From Caballeronia sp. M1242 (GTDB taxonomy: Bacteria; Pseudomonadota; Gammaproteobacteria; Burkholderiales; Burkholderiaceae): a stretch of 64,000 nt of DNA. The notes below the pieces were generated by a model. The model had not been told where the DNA came from. It did no database searches and saw nothing but the letters and a program-made list of their open reading frames with translations. Both the position numbers and the translations under genes were made by a program. Of the stretch, positions 7,646 through 16,222 are shown piece after piece. The DNA lies in NCBI RefSeq assembly GCF_017220215.1, contig NZ_CP071131.1, forward strand, positions 372,001 through 436,000, read 5' to 3'. Positions within the stretch are counted from its first letter, which is position 1. Every line of letters starts with the position of its first letter.

Positions 7646-7739
7646 TAGAAGACGAATGCGAACGGCTTGCGCGGACCGCGATGCGGAACGACGCTTGCTT
7701 ATGTCACGACGTGATATTGGTCCCCCCAGGAGCGCGCAG

Positions 7740-10019
7740 ATGAGCAAAGAAGCCAAGAACCCATCGTATCCTTTCGCTTCTGGCGGGTGGGGATCGATGA
7801 AAGCGGTCGCCACGATCCTCATGCAGGAGAAAGTGCCGATCAAGGACAGCGCGATCCTGCTCAAGCAGAACAAGCCCGACGGCTTCATGTGCGTGAGCTG
7901 CTCATGGGCGAAGCCCGCGGATCCGCATACGTTCGAATTCTGCGAAAGCGGCGCGAAGGCCACTGCCTGGGATACGACCGCCAAGCGAATGACGCCCGAG
8001 TTCTTCGAACTGCACACCGTTAAGCAATTGCTCAACTGGCACGATCACGATCTCGAAGAAGCAGGACGTCTGACCGCGCCCATGCGCTACGACGCAGCCA
8101 CGGACAAGTACACGGAAGTCACCTGGCAGCAGGCGTTCGACGAGATCGGCAAGGAGCTGAACGCGCTGGACCCGGAGACCGTCGTCTTCTACGCGTCAGG
8201 GCGCGCCTCGCTCGAAACTGCATACATGTACCAGCTTTTCGCGCGCATGTACGGCTGCAACAATTTGCCGGATAGCTCGAACATGTGTCACGAGAGTTCG
8301 AGCGTCGGTCTGAAGGAAGCGATCGGTGTCGGCGTCGGGACCATCACGCTCGAAGACTTCGAGAAGACGGATCTCATGTTCTTCTTCGGCCAGAACGTCG
8401 GCACGAATAGCCCGCGCATGCTGCACCAGTTGCAGGACGCGCGCAAACGCGGCGTGCCGATCATCACGTTCAATCCGCTTCGCGAGCCGGGTCTCGTCTC
8501 CTTCGCGAATCCTCAGTCGCCCGTGGAGATGCTGACGCCCAAGGAAACGCAGATCAGCACGCAATATCATCAGTTGAAGACCGGCGGCGATACGGCTGCC
8601 ATTCTCGGCATCTGCAAGGCAGTGATCGAGGCCGATGACCGCGCACAGGCCGAAGGCACGGAACGCGTGCTCGATGTCGCGTTCATCGAGGAACACACGA
8701 CCGGCTTCGAAGAATTCGCGGCCTGCGCGCGTCAGACCGAATGGAGCGAAATCGAACGAATCAGCGGACTGCCGCGCTCCGCGCTGCTCGAAGCGGCCAA
8801 TGAGTACATGAAAGCGAAGGCCGTGATGGCGCACTACGGCATGGGCCTCACGCAGCACAGGCTCGGCGTGCAGAACGTACGCATGCTATGCAACCTCCTC
8901 TTTCTGCGCGGCAACGTCGGTAAGCCGGGTGCTGGGCCTTCGCCGATACGCGGCCACTCCAACGTGCAGGGGCAGCGTACGGTCGGCATCACGGAGAAGC
9001 CTGAACTTGCGCCGCTCGATCAGCTCGCGAAGCAGTTCTCGTTCGAGCCGCCGCGAAAGAAAGGCATGAATACCGTCGAAGCATTCGAGGCGATGGTGAA
9101 GGGCAAAGTGAAGGCGGTCTTCAATCTCGGCGGCAATCTCGTGCGTTCGGTGCCGGACCGGTTGCAGACGGAGCCCGCGTGGTCGAACCTGCGCCTCACG
9201 ATCAACGTGGCCACGAAGCTCAACCGCAGTCACCTCGTGCATGGCGAGATATCGTATGTGCTGCCGTGCCTGAGCCGTATCGAGTTTCATCGCACGCGAC
9301 TGGGCGATCAGGCGGTCTCGATGGAAGACAGCACGGGCTGCATGCACGGCTCGAAGGGCGTGACCGAACCGGCAAGCGAGAAAGCGCGAGCCGAGCAATT
9401 CATCGTCGCGGGCATCGCGAAGGCGACGCTCGGCTCGCGTTCGACAGTCGATTGGGACGCGTGGAGCGACGACTATTCGCTCGTCCGAAACGAGATTGCG
9501 ACGACGTATCCCGAGACGTTCCATGACTTCAACGAACGCATGTGGGAGCCGGGCGGCTTTCATCGGCCGCTACCCGCTTGCGAACGCGTGTGGCAAACGA
9601 AGTCGGGCAAAGCGGAATTCATGACGCCGAACTCGCTCGTCGAGGACCCTGACATGCCCGAGAAGGCGCCGGAGGCATTGCGGCTCATGACCTTGCGCAG
9701 CGACAGCCAGTTCAACACGACCATCTATAACCTCGACGACCGGTTCAGAGGCGTGAAGGATTCCCGCATGGTTATCCTGATGAACGAGGCCGACATCACG
9801 AAGCATCATCTGAAGGAAGGCCAGGAAATCACCTTGCAGACCATTGCAGACGACGGCATCGACCGCCGGCTGTCGGGGCTGAAGATCAAGGCGTATGCGA
9901 TTCCCGAAGGCTGCATCGGCGGCTATTACCCGGAATGCAATGTGTTGCTGCCGCTCTGGCATTACGCCGAGGAAAGCAAGGTGCCGGGCGCGAAGTCGAT
10001 TCCGGTGCGTATTGTTTGA
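7740..10019 (+). CDS. FdhF/YdeP family molybdopterin oxidoreductase
   Basis: A 759-residue protein of the bis-MGD oxidoreductase superfamily. The same length as E. coli YdeP supports the start at 7740, which has CAGGAG seven bases upstream. An N-terminal MCVSCSW segment resembles a degenerate iron-sulfur region. At the site aligned with the selenocysteine of formate dehydrogenase H it has NMCHESSSVGL, giving Cys as the likely metal ligand followed by His. The cofactor segment HYGMGLTQHRLGVQN and a C-terminal dinucleotide-binding domain are present. YdeP is linked to acid resistance in E. coli; formate is not assured as substrate. Confidence 0.85.
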   Translation: MSKEAKNPSYPFASGGWGSMKAVATILMQEKVPIKDSAILLKQNKPDGFMCVSCSWAKPADPHTFEFCESGAKATAWDTTAKRMTPEFFELHTVKQLLNWHDHDLEEAGRLTAPMRYDAATDKYTEVTWQQAFDEIGKELNALDPETVVFYASGRASLETAYMYQLFARMYGCNNLPDSSNMCHESSSVGLKEAIGVGVGTITLEDFEKTDLMFFFGQNVGTNSPRMLHQLQDARKRGVPIITFNPLREPGLVSFANPQSPVEMLTPKETQISTQYHQLKTGGDTAAILGICKAVIEADDRAQAEGTERVLDVAFIEEHTTGFEEFAACARQTEWSEIERISGLPRSALLEAANEYMKAKAVMAHYGMGLTQHRLGVQNVRMLCNLLFLRGNVGKPGAGPSPIRGHSNVQGQRTVGITEKPELAPLDQLAKQFSFEPPRKKGMNTVEAFEAMVKGKVKAVFNLGGNLVRSVPDRLQTEPAWSNLRLTINVATKLNRSHLVHGEISYVLPCLSRIEFHRTRLGDQAVSMEDSTGCMHGSKGVTEPASEKARAEQFIVAGIAKATLGSRSTVDWDAWSDDYSLVRNEIATTYPETFHDFNERMWEPGGFHRPLPACERVWQTKSGKAEFMTPNSLVEDPDMPEKAPEALRLMTLRSDSQFNTTIYNLDDRFRGVKDSRMVILMNEADITKHHLKEGQEITLQTIADDGIDRRLSGLKIKAYAIPEGCIGGYYPECNVLLPLWHYAEESKVPGAKSIPVRIV

Positions 10020-10087: not shown

Positions 10088-11422
10088 TCATTGATGGATC
10101 TTCGAGCGAAGGCGCTCGACCTCGCGGTCCGAGACCGGCGCCGCGTGATTGCCCCATGTCCCACGAACGAAGCTGACGACCTGAGCGATCTGAGCGCTCG
10201 TCAGTTGGCCATGAAAGCCCGGCATCTTTTGCGGCGCAGGCCCTGTGTCCGTCTCCGGGCTCTTGCTGCCCTCGATCACGATGCGCATGACCGATGTCGG
10301 ATCTTCCGCCAGCACGAGCGGGTTGCCGGCGAGCGCTGCCACCTTGCCCGGCTGACCTTTGCCGTCCGCCTGATGACAGCGCGCGCAGAACGATAGATAG
10401 ACGCCCGCGCCCGGACGCTCCGCTTCGCCGGTCTGAATGCTGCGCGCCGTCTGTACCTTCGCATGCTCGTTGTTGGCGTAACTGCCGTAGGTCTGCTGAG
10501 GAGGCAGTGACTTCAGATAAGTTGCGATCGCATGCAGGTCGGCATCGGTCATGTACTGCGTGCTGTCCCCGATGACCGGCGCCATGGCCCCGAAAGCAAT
10601 CGCGCCTGCGCCGTGACCTGTACGCAGGAAATCGACGATGTCCTGCGCAGTCCAGCGCCCTAATCCGCTGCCCGGATCGCCGGTTAGGTTGGGTGCAAGC
10701 CAGTGATCGTTGACGCCGCTCGTGAGATACCACGGCGACTTCTCACTGTAGCCGAGCTCGTTATAAGCAGGACCGCGCGGCGTATGGCACGCGCCGCAAT
10801 GCCCCAATCCCTGCACCAGGTACGCGCCGCGATTCCATTGTGCGCTGCGCTTCGGATCGGGCTCGTACTGGTCGCGATTCCCAAATGCCCAGCTCCAGAA
10901 CAACATGCCCCATCGCTGATTGAACGGAAAAGGCAGATGCGTTTCCGGCGCGCGCTTCGCGCTCGGCTTCACGCCGTGCATCAGATAAGCATAGAGCGCG
11001 GTCACGTCGTCATCCGTCATGTTGGCGAGCGACGGATACGGCATGGCCGGATAAAGCCGCTTGCCGTCGCGGCGCTTTCCATAGCGAATCGCGTCCGAGA
11101 ACTCCTTCAACGTATAGCGTCCGATACCGAAGACCGGGTCCGGCGTGATGTTGCTCGAATAGATCGGGCCGAAGGGAGAGTTCACCGGCATGCCCCCTGC
11201 AAGCGGCGTGTGATCGGCCGCGTCGTGACACGCGCTGCAATCGCCCGCTTTCGCGAGATATTCGCCGCGAGCGATCAATTGCGGCGAGCTGGTCATCGGC
11301 GACTGCGCCGTGACGTTGTCGGGAAGATTGTCGTTCGCCCGGCCACTGCATGCGCCCAGGGTGGCGAGCACGACTGACATCAGTGCAGCGGCGATGTGAT
11401 TTTTCAAACTCGTCGCGTTCAT
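10088..11422 (-). CDS. three-haem cytochrome c lipoprotein (alcohol/gluconate dehydrogenase cytochrome type)
   Basis: A 444-residue protein with three CxxCH haem c sites: CSACH (62-66), CGACH (209-213) and CARCH (346-350). That is the three-domain layout of the cytochrome subunits of membrane-bound alcohol and gluconate dehydrogenases. A lipobox ending at Cys25 (ATLGAC) predicts a periplasmic lipoprotein. It is the last gene of the oxidase operon, one base after the preceding stop. It probably feeds electrons to the oxidase. The GMC dehydrogenase 3 kb away lacks its own cytochrome and is a conceivable donor. Confidence 0.85.
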   Translation of the reverse strand: MNATSLKNHIAAALMSVVLATLGACSGRANDNLPDNVTAQSPMTSSPQLIARGEYLAKAGDCSACHDAADHTPLAGGMPVNSPFGPIYSSNITPDPVFGIGRYTLKEFSDAIRYGKRRDGKRLYPAMPYPSLANMTDDDVTALYAYLMHGVKPSAKRAPETHLPFPFNQRWGMLFWSWAFGNRDQYEPDPKRSAQWNRGAYLVQGLGHCGACHTPRGPAYNELGYSEKSPWYLTSGVNDHWLAPNLTGDPGSGLGRWTAQDIVDFLRTGHGAGAIAFGAMAPVIGDSTQYMTDADLHAIATYLKSLPPQQTYGSYANNEHAKVQTARSIQTGEAERPGAGVYLSFCARCHQADGKGQPGKVAALAGNPLVLAEDPTSVMRIVIEGSKSPETDTGPAPQKMPGFHGQLTSAQIAQVVSFVRGTWGNHAAPVSDREVERLRSKIHQ

Positions 11423-11423
11423 T

Positions 11424-11891
11424 TCAATGCCATTGATTGCAGGAATCGAGGAACACTTCGGCCAGAATGGTGAAGACCAGCGCGAGGACGAAGAGACAGC
11501 CGATCAACGCACTGCACAGCGCAATGAAGCGCTTGCGGGCCAACTGTTCTTCGAAGCGCGAAGGCTTATCCGACGAAGAAGCGCTCGCTTTGGCCTGCTG
11601 CTCTTTCTTCTGCAAGAAGCGAAAGCCGTAGACCGCCATGCTCGCGCAGACAAGCGACACGATCACAGCCGCAGCCGAGGTACCGTACAGCCACGCATGA
11701 AAATGCCTGAAAACCGGCTCCGCACGGCGAATCGACTCGGCATAGCAGGCCTGCGCCGAGATCGTCTCGGAGATCATCACCTGCAGCAGCCACGCGCCTG
11801 GCGAGAGGAAAAAGCCCGCGCACGCGCAGACGACGAGACGTCGCTTTTCTTCTTTCGTGAGATGCTGCTCGGGCAGCGCGGACGTTTGCAT
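11424..11891 (-). CDS. small membrane protein of the oxidase operon
   Basis: A 155-residue protein with about three membrane helices (around residues 19-42, 70-92 and 126-150) and a charged loop rich in Lys, Ala and Ser between the second and third. Its ATG overlaps the last base of the subunit I/III stop (TGATG), indicating translational coupling. I do not recognise the family. Bradyrhizobium coxMNOP is known for extra small subunit-III-like products, so an accessory oxidase subunit is possible but unproven. Confidence 0.65.
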   Translation of the reverse strand: MQTSALPEQHLTKEEKRRLVVCACAGFFLSPGAWLLQVMISETISAQACYAESIRRAEPVFRHFHAWLYGTSAAAVIVSLVCASMAVYGFRFLQKKEQQAKASASSSDKPSRFEEQLARKRFIALCSALIGCLFVLALVFTILAEVFLDSCNQWH

Positions 11892-14491
11892 CAGTGACCC
11901 CGCATCCAGAAAGGCGTCACGTAGAGCGACGTGAAGATGAAGAGCCACACTACGTCGACGAAGTGCCAGTACAGGCCGCCGATACGCATCGGTGCATTGC
12001 GTTCCTCGTCGAAATAGCCGAGCGCGATCCACACGGCAAGCAACACGAGAATCACGATGCCGACCATGACGTGCGCCATGTGAAAGCCGGTGATCGTGAA
12101 ATACAGCGAGCCATAGAGATGCGCCGTGATGCCGTAGGGATGGTCGTGCCATTCCTTCAACTGCATGCCGGAGAACACGCAGCCGAGGGCAATGGCGCCG
12201 AGCATCCACGCGAATGCCGGCCAGCGCTTGCCCTTCTTCAGCGTTCGCTCCGACATCCACGCCAGCACGCTACTCATGATAAGCACGCCGGTACTCATTG
12301 CGCCGGTGCCGATCTTCGGCATGCCCTCGGGCGGCCACGGCAACGTGGTTTGCGACTGCGAATAGAAATAGCAGAAGATGAGATAGCCGAAGAGACTCGC
12401 TTCGGTGGCGACCAGCGCGAGCACGCCCCACCATCCGCCCGAATGCTCGCCCGTGCTTCCGACTGGCAGCACGTCCTTCTTTTTCGCGGCCTGCGCCGGA
12501 ATGGTTTCTTCGGGCGTAGGCGGTTCACGTTGCCCGAGCGAGCGGCGCGGCCACATCCACGCCACCAGTGTCGCACCGCACCCCGCGACCATGAGAGCAG
12601 TGAACCACGGCGAGCGCAGCAGCAGCGCGGCGAAACAGAGCGCAGCGAAAAGAGCCAGCAGGAATGGCGACCATGCGTCCTCCGGCATCTTGAGTATCGC
12701 GTCGGGCTTGCCGTTGAACGGATGCACGCCGAGCGCCTCGCGTCCCTGATGCAGCAGATAACCGGACTTCAGGCTCGACTGCCGCCCTTTGGGTTGCAAG
12801 CGATCTTCCCACATAGGATGCCGCGACTCGACAATCGGCAGCACCGCGAAGTTGTAGGCCGCGGGCGGCGAGTCAGTCGACCATTCGAGGCCCGGCGCAT
12901 CCCAGGGGTTCTGCGGCGCCTTCTTTCCTCGCTTCGCCGAGACGAGTGCATTGACTAAAAAGATGCCGATGCCAATTGCGAAGATGAACGAGCCGATCGT
13001 CGTAATGAGATTGGAGGTATCCCATCCCATGCCTTCCGGATACGTATAGATGCGTCGCGGCATGCCGAGCAGCCCCGATATATGCATCGGGAAGAAGCCG
13101 ACATTGAAGCCGACGAGAATGATCCAGAACGCGATCTTGCCCCACCGCTCGCTCATCAGACGCCCGGTGAATTTCGGAAACCAATAAGTAATGCCGCCGA
13201 ATACCGGGAATACGTTGATGCCGAGCAGCACGTAATGAAGATGCGCGACGACGAAGTAAGTGTCAGTGAGTTGCCAGTCGAGCGGCACCGCTGCGGTCAT
13301 CACGCCCGAGACGCCGCCTATCACGAACATCAGCACGAAGCTCGCGAAATAGAGGAACGGCGTGGAGAACACGGGGCGCCCCGTCCAGATCGTCGCGATC
13401 CACGCGAAGACGGCGACCGCGCTCGGAATCGTAATGAGCACGCTCGCTGCGCCGAAAAAGGCGAGCGCAAGCGGCGGAATGCCGGTCGCGAACATGTGAT
13501 GAATCCAGACTTCGAATCCGATGATCATCGTCGCGACCGTCGACATGGCTACTGCCGCGTAACCGACGAGCGGACGCCGACAAAACGTGGGCAATGCATC
13601 CGAGACGATGCCCATCGCAGGCAGCACCACGACATACACCCACGGATGCGCGAACATCCAGAAAAGGTGCTGCCAGAGCAGCGGCCTGCCGTCGCTCGCG
13701 ACGTCGAAGAAATGCGTGCCGATGTTGCGGTCCATCCATAACAGAAAGAACGCGAGACTCACGGACGGCACGGCAAAGAGGTTCGCGAAGGAAATGGTCA
13801 GCGTGCCCCATACGATGATCGGCAGCCGGTCCACCGACATGCCCACCGCGCGCATGCGAAAGAGCGTGACCACGAAATTCACGGCGCCAACGGTCGTCGA
13901 AATGCCGAGCAACACCATGCCGAGCGAATAGACGTCGATGTTTATTCCACGGCTGTATTCGAGCGACGAAAGCGGCACATAGTTGAACCAGCCCGCATTC
14001 GGCGCTTCGCCGAGCGGAAAGCTGCAATACAGAAAAATGCCGGCAAAAAGAAAGATCCAATACGAAAGCGCGTTCAGACGCGGGAACGCCATGTCGCGCG
14101 AGCCCAGCATGAGCGGCCAAAGAAAATTCGCGAAGCCGCTCAGCACCGGCAGCGCGTAGAGAAAGATCATCGTGATGCCGTGCATCGTGAACAGCTCCGC
14201 GAACTGTCCCGGCGTGACGAGCGTCTCGTTCGGCCGCGCGAGTTGCAAGCGCATGATGAGCGCCTCGACGCCGCCCAACAGCAGAAACACGAACGCGGTC
14301 ACGATATAGCGCAGGCCGATCTTCTTGTGATCGACTGTCGTGATGAAGCCGCGCCATCCCGATTCGCCTTCCCATAGATCGAGCAGCCGCTTCTCGGCTT
14401 CCGATCCTTTCGGGACGCTGCCGAACTCCGGCTCGCGTCTGAACGCGACGCGGTGCGAGTGCCCGGCGCTTCGATCCCCTGTCACGGCCAT
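11891..14491 (-). CDS. haem-copper oxidase subunit I fused to subunit III, with non-canonical proton channels
   Basis: An 866-residue fusion. Residues 1-560 are subunit I: haem a ligands His104 and His419, haem a3 ligand His417, CuB ligands His282, His331 and His332, and the cross-link tyrosine Tyr286. Residues about 690-866 are subunit III. The D-channel entrance residues Asn122, Asp133 and Asn140 are kept. However, the channel Glu of the usual HPEVY is Trp284 (HPWVY), the alternative YS-HP pair is FA-HP, and the K-channel Lys of PTGIK is Ala360 (PSAVA). The start at 14491 has AAGGA upstream and follows the subunit II stop by ten bases. Confidence 0.9.
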   Translation of the reverse strand: MAVTGDRSAGHSHRVAFRREPEFGSVPKGSEAEKRLLDLWEGESGWRGFITTVDHKKIGLRYIVTAFVFLLLGGVEALIMRLQLARPNETLVTPGQFAELFTMHGITMIFLYALPVLSGFANFLWPLMLGSRDMAFPRLNALSYWIFLFAGIFLYCSFPLGEAPNAGWFNYVPLSSLEYSRGINIDVYSLGMVLLGISTTVGAVNFVVTLFRMRAVGMSVDRLPIIVWGTLTISFANLFAVPSVSLAFFLLWMDRNIGTHFFDVASDGRPLLWQHLFWMFAHPWVYVVVLPAMGIVSDALPTFCRRPLVGYAAVAMSTVATMIIGFEVWIHHMFATGIPPLALAFFGAASVLITIPSAVAVFAWIATIWTGRPVFSTPFLYFASFVLMFVIGGVSGVMTAAVPLDWQLTDTYFVVAHLHYVLLGINVFPVFGGITYWFPKFTGRLMSERWGKIAFWIILVGFNVGFFPMHISGLLGMPRRIYTYPEGMGWDTSNLITTIGSFIFAIGIGIFLVNALVSAKRGKKAPQNPWDAPGLEWSTDSPPAAYNFAVLPIVESRHPMWEDRLQPKGRQSSLKSGYLLHQGREALGVHPFNGKPDAILKMPEDAWSPFLLALFAALCFAALLLRSPWFTALMVAGCGATLVAWMWPRRSLGQREPPTPEETIPAQAAKKKDVLPVGSTGEHSGGWWGVLALVATEASLFGYLIFCYFYSQSQTTLPWPPEGMPKIGTGAMSTGVLIMSSVLAWMSERTLKKGKRWPAFAWMLGAIALGCVFSGMQLKEWHDHPYGITAHLYGSLYFTITGFHMAHVMVGIVILVLLAVWIALGYFDEERNAPMRIGGLYWHFVDVVWLFIFTSLYVTPFWMRGH

Positions 14492-14501
14492 CGTCTTGTC
14501 C

Positions 14502-15566
14502 TTACCTGAGAGTAGCGAGGTATGCCGACAGCTCGCCTGATTCAACGGGCGAAAGCTTCATGTCGGGCATGAGCGTGCCGGGCTTGATTTCCTGCGCATG
14601 CTGAATCCAGTCCATCAGATTCTCCGGCGTATTGACGACCGTGCCCGCCGCCAATAGCCGGCGCGACAGCACATGCGTGAGATCGGGCGCCTGCACGCCG
14701 GCCGCGTTGCTTCCACGCACCGCGTGGCAGCCCGCGCAGCGTTCCTCGAAGAGCTTCCTGCCGTGCACGGCCTGCGTCGTGGCCGGCGCGGCTACCGTGC
14801 GCTGCTGCGCGGCGTACCATCGGTCATAGTCGGCTTGCGGCTGCGCATAGACTTCGAATGCCATGTGAGCATGTTGCACGCCGCAGTACTGCGTGCACTG
14901 GCCGCGAAAAATGCCGGGCTTGTCGGCCTGTATCCACTGACGGTTGGTGTTGCCGGGTATGGTCTGCGTCTTGCCGGACAATTGCGGCACCCAGAACGCA
15001 TGAATGACGTCTGCACTCTTTAGCAGCACGAGCACCGGCACGCCCACCGGAATATGCAGTTCGTTGGCGGTCGTGAAGGCGCTCGGGCCCTGTCCGTAGT
15101 CCACTTTCCACCACCAGTCGTAGGCGGTGACCGTGACAGTAAGAGCCGGCGTTCTGGGCGGATCGGCGACCTCGGCCAGCACCGTCAGCATGTAGATGGC
15201 GATGCCGAACAACGCCACAGTCGATATGGCCGTGCCGACATAGATAAAACTCAGGCCGCCACCCTTGCCGAGCGCACGGTGATCTTCTTTCTTGCGATGA
15301 CGGAAGGTCGCTATCAGCAGCATCACCGCGATGATGATGCAGACAAGACTGCATATGGCCGTCAGCACCCAGTCCAGATGCAGGACGGGATGCGCCGCCG
15401 GTCCCCTGCTGTGGAGGAAATAGGCAAGCGGCGTCGGTCCGCTCGTGAGTGAATCGGATGTGTCGGGCGCTGCCTCGTTCGCAGATGCCGTGATCTGACG
15501 AAGCGAGACCGCGAGCGCCAGCCCCGTTCGCAAGATAGATACGAAAAACCGACGCACACAGATCAC
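14502..15566 (-). CDS. cytochrome c oxidase subunit II with C-terminal haem c domain (caa3 type)
   Basis: A 354-residue protein with an N-terminal signal-like segment, two membrane helices (about 63-88 and 105-131), a CuA cupredoxin domain and a cytochrome c domain. CuA ligands are His189, Cys224, Cys228, His232 and Met235; the usual Glu between the cysteines is Gln226, which binds through its backbone carbonyl and so should be tolerated. The haem site is CAGCH (277-281), with a likely Met ligand in TLMPDM. Its start overlaps the preceding DUF4396 gene by four bases (ATGA). Confidence 0.9.
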   Translation of the reverse strand: MICVRRFFVSILRTGLALAVSLRQITASANEAAPDTSDSLTSGPTPLAYFLHSRGPAAHPVLHLDWVLTAICSLVCIIIAVMLLIATFRHRKKEDHRALGKGGGLSFIYVGTAISTVALFGIAIYMLTVLAEVADPPRTPALTVTVTAYDWWWKVDYGQGPSAFTTANELHIPVGVPVLVLLKSADVIHAFWVPQLSGKTQTIPGNTNRQWIQADKPGIFRGQCTQYCGVQHAHMAFEVYAQPQADYDRWYAAQQRTVAAPATTQAVHGRKLFEERCAGCHAVRGSNAAGVQAPDLTHVLSRRLLAAGTVVNTPENLMDWIQHAQEIKPGTLMPDMKLSPVESGELSAYLATLR

Positions 15567-16222
15567 ATCTTCTCCTTGATGCCTCGCCGGATGAGCCAGT
15601 AGTTGACCGGGTATGTCGTCAGGAAGCCCGCCACCATCGCAAGTTGCATGCGCACCCAGTACGCTGAGTCAGTCGGCTCGAGCGGCGTGGCAGGCTTCGC
15701 GAAAGCGATCATCACGCCGAACATGCCCACCTCGTACGCAACGAGAGAAAGCGTGTCCGCCTTGACTGCCGCAATCACGCCATCGCGAAAGCCAAGGCCT
15801 CGCATCGGCGCGATCGAGAAATACTGGAAAGCCACGCCGATCAGGTAAGCCAGCACGAACGCCAGCGCGAGCCGCCCGATCAGTTCCGAGCCCGCGATGC
15901 TGAAGGCAAGCAGAAAGGCGAGCCATTCCCCAATGAAATCTCCCAACGCGCAACCTGCGCCGCAATGCGTCGCGCCCAGAAATGTGGCTTGCCACATCGG
16001 CGCTTCGCGCTGCTTTGCGCCGGGCGTCGCGCGCCCGAACGCGAAATAGAAAACCAAGCCTATTGGGCCCCAGTACAGCATCGTCAACGGCCATACCACG
16101 GACATGATCGCCATCGGTTGCCGATGTCCGAGCATTGCTATGTCGACCACCACTGCACATGCGGAAAGCACCGATAACGCCAGCCATGCCGTTGGCATCA
16201 CGACCGACCAGTGTGCCGGCAT
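15563..16222 (-). CDS. DUF4396 family membrane protein
   Basis: A 219-residue protein with about six membrane segments and features I associate with DUF4396: LYWGPIGLVFYFAFGR (49-64) and a THCGAGCALGDFIGEW block with paired Cys and His near residues 85-100. The His/Cys cluster could bind a metal, perhaps copper for the oxidase, but that is inference. It is the first gene of the oxidase operon and diverges from the MarR-type gene. Confidence 0.75.
   Translation of the reverse strand: MPAHWSVVMPTAWLALSVLSACAVVVDIAMLGHRQPMAIMSVVWPLTMLYWGPIGLVFYFAFGRATPGAKQREAPMWQATFLGATHCGAGCALGDFIGEWLAFLLAFSIAGSELIGRLALAFVLAYLIGVAFQYFSIAPMRGLGFRDGVIAAVKADTLSLVAYEVGMFGVMIAFAKPATPLEPTDSAYWVRMQLAMVAGFLTTYPVNYWLIRRGIKEKM

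Follow-up and report, generated by a model that had tools for sequence, protein, structure and literature searches.

A clade of caa3-type oxidases with tryptophan in place of the D-channel glutamate and without the K-channel lysine

The window, that is, the whole stretch of 64,000 nucleotides analysed, carries on its reverse strand an operon for a caa3-type heme-copper oxidase. The open reading frame at 11891-14491 was confirmed as real and in frame, with the ATG at 14491 as the start of the numbering used here, and it holds more than the preliminary description had recognised, being a fusion of subunit I with subunit III. The genes and the codons discussed below are the following.

10088..11422, minus strand: triheme cytochrome c (3 CXXCH motifs), resembling the cytochrome c subunit of quinoprotein alcohol dehydrogenases
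11424..11891, minus strand: small membrane protein of 155 aa, conserved in the operon, in a CaaP-like position (65 of 87 loci)
11891..14491, minus strand: caa3-type oxidase subunit I + III fusion (CaaA/CtaD-CtaE), 866 aa (ORF; Pfam COX1 492 bits, COX3 81 bits)
13412..13414, minus strand: Ala360 codon, K-channel Lys position (Paracoccus Lys354; from alignments, Lys in 0/89)
13634..13636, minus strand: Tyr286 codon, active-site Tyr, cross-linked to a CuB His in A-type enzymes (invariant)
13640..13642, minus strand: Trp284 codon, D-channel Glu position (Paracoccus Glu278; from alignments, Trp in 89/89)
14093..14095, minus strand: Asp133 codon, D-channel entrance (Paracoccus Asp124; 89/89)
14264..14266, minus strand: Glu76 codon, helix I, bo3 Asp75 position (Glu in 89/89)
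14502..15566, minus strand: subunit II, CuA domain and C-terminal cytochrome c with CAGCH (Pfam COX2, Cytochrom_C)
15563..16222, minus strand: DUF4396 membrane protein (Pfam PF14342, 150 bits)

Around the fusion gene the operon is well kept. Of the 87 loci scanned, some of them incomplete, all have subunit III and 85 have subunit II; the triheme cytochrome is present at 75, and 65 carry the small membrane protein, which matches no Pfam family above cut-off. The triheme protein has as its top PDB match 8gy2_B (E 9.6e-101), the cytochrome c subunit of a quinoprotein alcohol dehydrogenase. This closeness suggests that electrons come from a periplasmic dehydrogenase, and the triheme cytochrome is the probable electron donor of the oxidase. 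CtaG and SCO1/SenC copper-assembly genes adjoin the Nitrosospira copy. The DUF4396 gene overlaps the start of subunit II and occurs at 7 of the 87 loci, only in some Caballeronia and Paraburkholderia copies. A FdhF/YdeP-type molybdopterin oxidoreductase (window 7656-10019) adjoins the operon in the opposite orientation, and lies near it at 8 of 87 loci.

The same cluster is found on the third replicon of Burkholderia cenocepacia H111 as caaBAC, with a heme c/CuA subunit II, a fused I+III subunit, the small membrane protein and a cytochrome c. In the part of its published description considered here, it is treated as a caa3 oxidase of the usual kind, homologous to the Thermus enzyme; the cluster is silent in rich medium, and growth on minimal-medium plates raises its expression 11-fold over that in liquid (PMC11742914). 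That part makes no mention of missing proton-channel residues. Our placing of the H111 enzyme among those described below is an assignment from gene order and species and not from its own sequence; the B. cenocepacia copies in our sample (L047 and L123) carry HPWVY and PSAVA.

The preliminary description had claimed that subunit I lost the residues normally essential for proton delivery while keeping its metal site, and alignment bears this out. In HMMER alignments to 2yev_A, 6kob_A, 6adq_F and 7rh5_R, the Glu of HPEVY is replaced by Trp284 (in FAHPWVY), and Ala360 (in IPSAVAVFAW) occupies the position of the Lys of PTGxK in A-type structures. There are no gaps around the motifs against the solved A-type enzymes. 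The Tyr-Ser couple of A2 enzymes is likewise changed, to Phe280-Ala281, and Trp284 aligns with the Thr of the Thermus YSHPTVY. All six metal ligands (His104, His282, His331, His332, His417 and His419) and the cross-linkable Tyr286 are intact, and the D-channel entrance residues Asn122, Asp133 and Asn140 were found exactly where they had been placed. The loss extends to subunit II, which had not been considered before: the Glu at the entrance of the K-pathway is replaced by Ser106 (alignments to 1ar1_B and 2yev_B, and the family alignment), within a stretch that holds no acid at all in the alignment to Paracoccus 1ar1_B. A structure model first built from 20 close relatives had a pLDDT of 57; with a deeper alignment it reached pLDDT 87 and pTM 0.88, and it matches A-type structures with Z 46-49 over about 515 residues (VIA Z 49 to bo3/aa3).

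This state is a fixed feature of a clade and not a peculiarity of one genome. A scan of 84,980 species genomes, together with whole-genome searches and one plasmid record, yielded 89 HPWVY loci from Burkholderiaceae, Nitrosomonadaceae, Methylococcaceae (methanotrophs), Rhodanobacteraceae (Rhodanobacter) and Alcaligenaceae, with one copy each from metagenomes of Gemmatimonadota and Acidobacteriota. Close copies occur in 30 of 58 genomes of the genus and in 35 of 150 in a sample of the family. Trp284 is invariant in these 89 loci, which we call the Trp clade, and none has Lys at position 360 (Ala in 84, Gly in two, Ser, Thr and Gln in one each). The controls, 15 A1-type and quinol-oxidase sequences, all have both Glu and Lys; they include what the Thermus protein retrieved when used as a query for A2 sequences, since it returned A1 enzymes only. 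Tyr286 and Arg81 never vary, the latter standing at the position of the heme a formyl partner. Between close orthologues dN/dS is 0.04-0.11, so the gene is under strong purifying selection. Two further sites are changed in the Trp clade: in subunit I, Thr (53) or Asn (34) takes the place of the Mg-site His (codon 409, window 13265-13267), and in subunit II the Glu of the CuA loop is mostly Gln (CTQYC).

The nearest relatives show the opposite pattern. In a tree from which columns 284 and 360 were left out, the Trp clade forms one supported group (100/97) and joins, with support 98/100, a sister clade of 28 members (98/97; L003, L010-L014, L101-L122), one of which, L003 (G000:C3:508691-510532), lies within the same Caballeronia genome. 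Like the Trp clade, the sister clade has lost the K-channel Lys, which is Gln in 28/28, and the subunit II Glu, and most of its members carry heme c on subunit II. It keeps HPEVY, whereas its D-channel asparagines are lost and Glu118, Glu196 and Glu205 have been gained, which makes it as odd as the Trp clade itself. The simplest order of events would be that the Lys and the subunit II Glu were lost in a common ancestor and that Glu then became Trp once; the root of the tree sits on one very long branch, and this order is to be read accordingly. The basal member of the Trp clade, L009, has Trp and, in place of the Lys, Gln.

Fold, ligands, CuA and descent place the enzyme in the A family, and it is neither A1 nor A2. 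It has the six His ligands and the helix VI Tyr, scores above cut-off with Pfam COX1 and TIGR02891, and is accompanied by a COX2 domain with the CxxxC, His and Met ligands of CuA. A1 enzymes are defined by a Glu in the XGHPEV motif of helix VI and A2 enzymes by the Tyr-Ser of YSHPXV (PMC8780969, PMC8361435); here the motif is FAHPWV, with Trp in 89/89, and Phe280 is followed by Ala or Gly281 in 89/89. Of the K-pathway (Lys, Thr and the subunit II Glu) nothing is left, since positions 360 and 357 are Ala and Ser and the entrance in subunit II has no acidic residue, so that membership rests on descent and fold and not on the channel definition. The lower D-channel, given for Paracoccus as Asp124, Asn113, Asn131, Asn199, Tyr35, Ser134 and Ser193 (PMC3084760), is complete in every locus as Tyr62, Asn122, Asp133, Asn140, Ser143, Thr199 and Asn205, with Thr for Ser193. 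The protein is far in the tree from the B-like subunit I of the same genome, and has Ala360 and Ser297 in place of the Thr and Tyr of the alternative K-pathway. Nor is it a quinol oxidase of the bo3/aa3-600 type: CuA is present, and instead of the bo3 residues Arg71, Asp75, His98 and Gln101 it has Leu for the Arg, Glu76, Gln96 and Glu99. Only 4 of 1216 sequences in Sousa 2011 lacked the channel residues of their own type, all of them B-like (PMC3084760). In the open-access literature we found no paper naming HPWVY or A-type oxidases without both residues; the classifications of Pereira 2001 and Sousa 2012, being subscription papers outside that search, may mention HPWVY.

In Rhodobacter aa3, mutants of Glu286 and Lys362 are nearly inactive, and a working enzyme without both residues therefore needs compensation, which weighs against the reading preferred below. 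A conserved Glu or Lys nearby, which the preliminary description had named as evidence against its own reading, was sought, and none that is new to the clade adjoins Trp284 or Ala360 in sequence. Glu327 (GFEVW, near the CuB histidines) was considered as a compensating acid and rejected, as it varies among E, G, V, I, L and Q across the clade. Glu76 in helix I, five residues from Arg81, is the sole membrane carboxylate that is both new and invariant; position 76 is Glu in 89/89 loci, L, S or M in the sister clade, and M, L, D, F or I in A1 and quinol oxidases. Polar residues specific to the clade are more numerous. Helix V has Thr230, Thr232, Ser234, Asn237 and Ser245, of which 230, 234, 237 and 245 are spaced along one helical face; Thr107 and Tyr112 lie in helix II, and Asn426 completes the set. 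In the sister clade, and in most A1 enzymes, apolar residues stand at these positions.

Taken together, these data make it an even call, in our judgement, that the Trp-clade enzyme is a working O2 reductase which takes its chemical protons through the retained D-channel past the Trp and whose pumping is weakened or lost. O2 would be reduced at a normal heme a3-CuB-Tyr site with neither K-pathway nor Glu valve, and electrons would flow from the triheme dehydrogenase-type cytochrome c to the heme c/CuA subunit. Protons for the chemistry would enter the lower D-channel from the cytoplasm and could pass Trp284 by way of water and of Thr230, Ser234, Asn237 and Ser245 in helix V and Thr107 and Tyr112 in helix II. 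As there is no Glu to divide protons between the chemistry and the pump, the enzyme probably pumps less or not at all. The sequence is compatible with pumping that is lost, reduced or rerouted. The preliminary proposal of little or no pumping, or of a new proton route, is supported in part. We count in favour of this reading the intact ligands and Tyr of all members, the D-channel body kept in 89/89 loci and lost in the sister clade, the disappearance of Lys together with the subunit II Glu, and the polar residues of helices V and II. Purifying selection, the conserved operon with its CuA/heme c subunit and triheme cytochrome, the copper-assembly genes beside the Nitrosospira copy and the expression of the B. 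cenocepacia caa genes (PMC11742914) also count for it. Retention of the D-channel body suggests that proton uptake from the N side continues. Taken alone this retention is mildly informative, suggestive and not proof, since of 99 columns invariant in the controls the Trp clade keeps 77, against 48 in the sister clade. The helix V stripe could instead serve packing or O2 access.

The same polar residues would also suit an enzyme that pumps nearly as usual, the role of the Glu having moved to other side chains (the helix V stripe, Tyr112 or Glu76) as it moved to Tyr-Ser in A2 oxidases. A2 enzymes show that the Glu is replaceable, and the Thermus sequence, equally Glu-less, agrees with the clade in Ser234 and Asn237 and has a Thr at 245. 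This comparison is with one A2 sequence, however, and Asn237 is Ile in the basal L009. Glu76, invariant and clade-specific as it is, sits in helix I at the place of the bo3 quinol-site Asp and not beside Trp284 in sequence. We think this explanation unlikely, while keeping it in view. Thermus thermophilus caa3 (A2, 2yev) is the top PDB match by sequence for both subunits I and II and, like the Trp clade, has the I+III fusion and no D-channel Glu. It differs in having Tyr-Ser, the K-channel Lys and the subunit II Glu, where the Trp-clade enzyme has Phe-Ala and no K-pathway.

A resemblance to NO reductases comes from the Trp itself. NorB-type genes of five Burkholderiales genomes have HLWVE and HHYxx-X17-E, with Trp exactly at the D-channel Glu position, two residues past the helix VI metal-ligand His, so that HPWVY resembles an oxidase site with a NOR residue at one position. 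Cytochrome-c NO reductase has no N-side proton channel (PMC3084760), and some clade members belong to ammonia oxidisers. One could thus imagine an enzyme without an N-side proton route, which takes periplasmic protons, neither pumps nor separates charge, and has NO reduction as a main or side activity. The alignment with NO reductases suggested in the preliminary description finds the NOR Trp without the NOR glutamates. The published motifs of cNOR and qNOR are H-X-Arom-X-E and HH-X-Arom-Arom-X17-E (PMC3084760), whereas the Trp284 enzyme has HPWVY, with Tyr for the Glu, and HHMFA; by these motifs it is not a NO reductase, though it may reduce NO as a side activity. It also retains CuA and His-only CuB ligands, and its invariant D-channel asparagines would be needless if protons did not enter there. 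We therefore hold a NOR-like mode of action to be improbable. The sNOR of ammonia oxidisers is of another family, being classed as B-type (PMC6967387).

Pumping through an H-pathway, independent of both the D-channel Glu and the K-channel Lys, would agree with the invariance of Arg81 and with Glu76 five residues away. It is a current proposal for all oxidase families, but its mechanism is contested, as the same source recounts (PMC12901375), and we give it little credence here. That both absent residues are textbook-essential might suggest misalignment, a sequencing error or a non-functional copy, but this is scarcely credible, being refuted in substance by 89 loci alike, dN/dS of 0.04-0.11, an operon kept across phyla and alignments ungapped around the motifs.

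If the preferred reading of a working O2 reductase is true, O2 is reduced without Glu valve or K-pathway, and two residues held essential are dispensable. The Trp clade would then probably represent a third A-family type beside A1 and A2, one that makes do with the lower half of a D-channel and has neither Glu valve nor K-pathway. Its members would be either aa3-type oxidases that naturally do not pump or pumps with an undescribed route. Because textbook proton-carrying residues are replaced in a strictly conserved and widespread branch, the clade is a natural test of how protons are moved and pumped in respiration. Together with the sister clade of reverse pattern it offers ready-made enzymes for which models predict opposite outcomes. 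Existing annotation calls the Trp-clade genes plain ctaD, which affects energy yields calculated from genomes.

The Caballeronia genome encodes six PF00115 proteins: two canonical aa3, one bo3-type, one B-like, the Trp284 protein and a paralogue 47% identical to it. The B-like subunit I, L006 (G000:C2:717272-718624), bears HAIVYFW, and stands in this genome beside aa3, bo3 and two atypical A-type oxidases.
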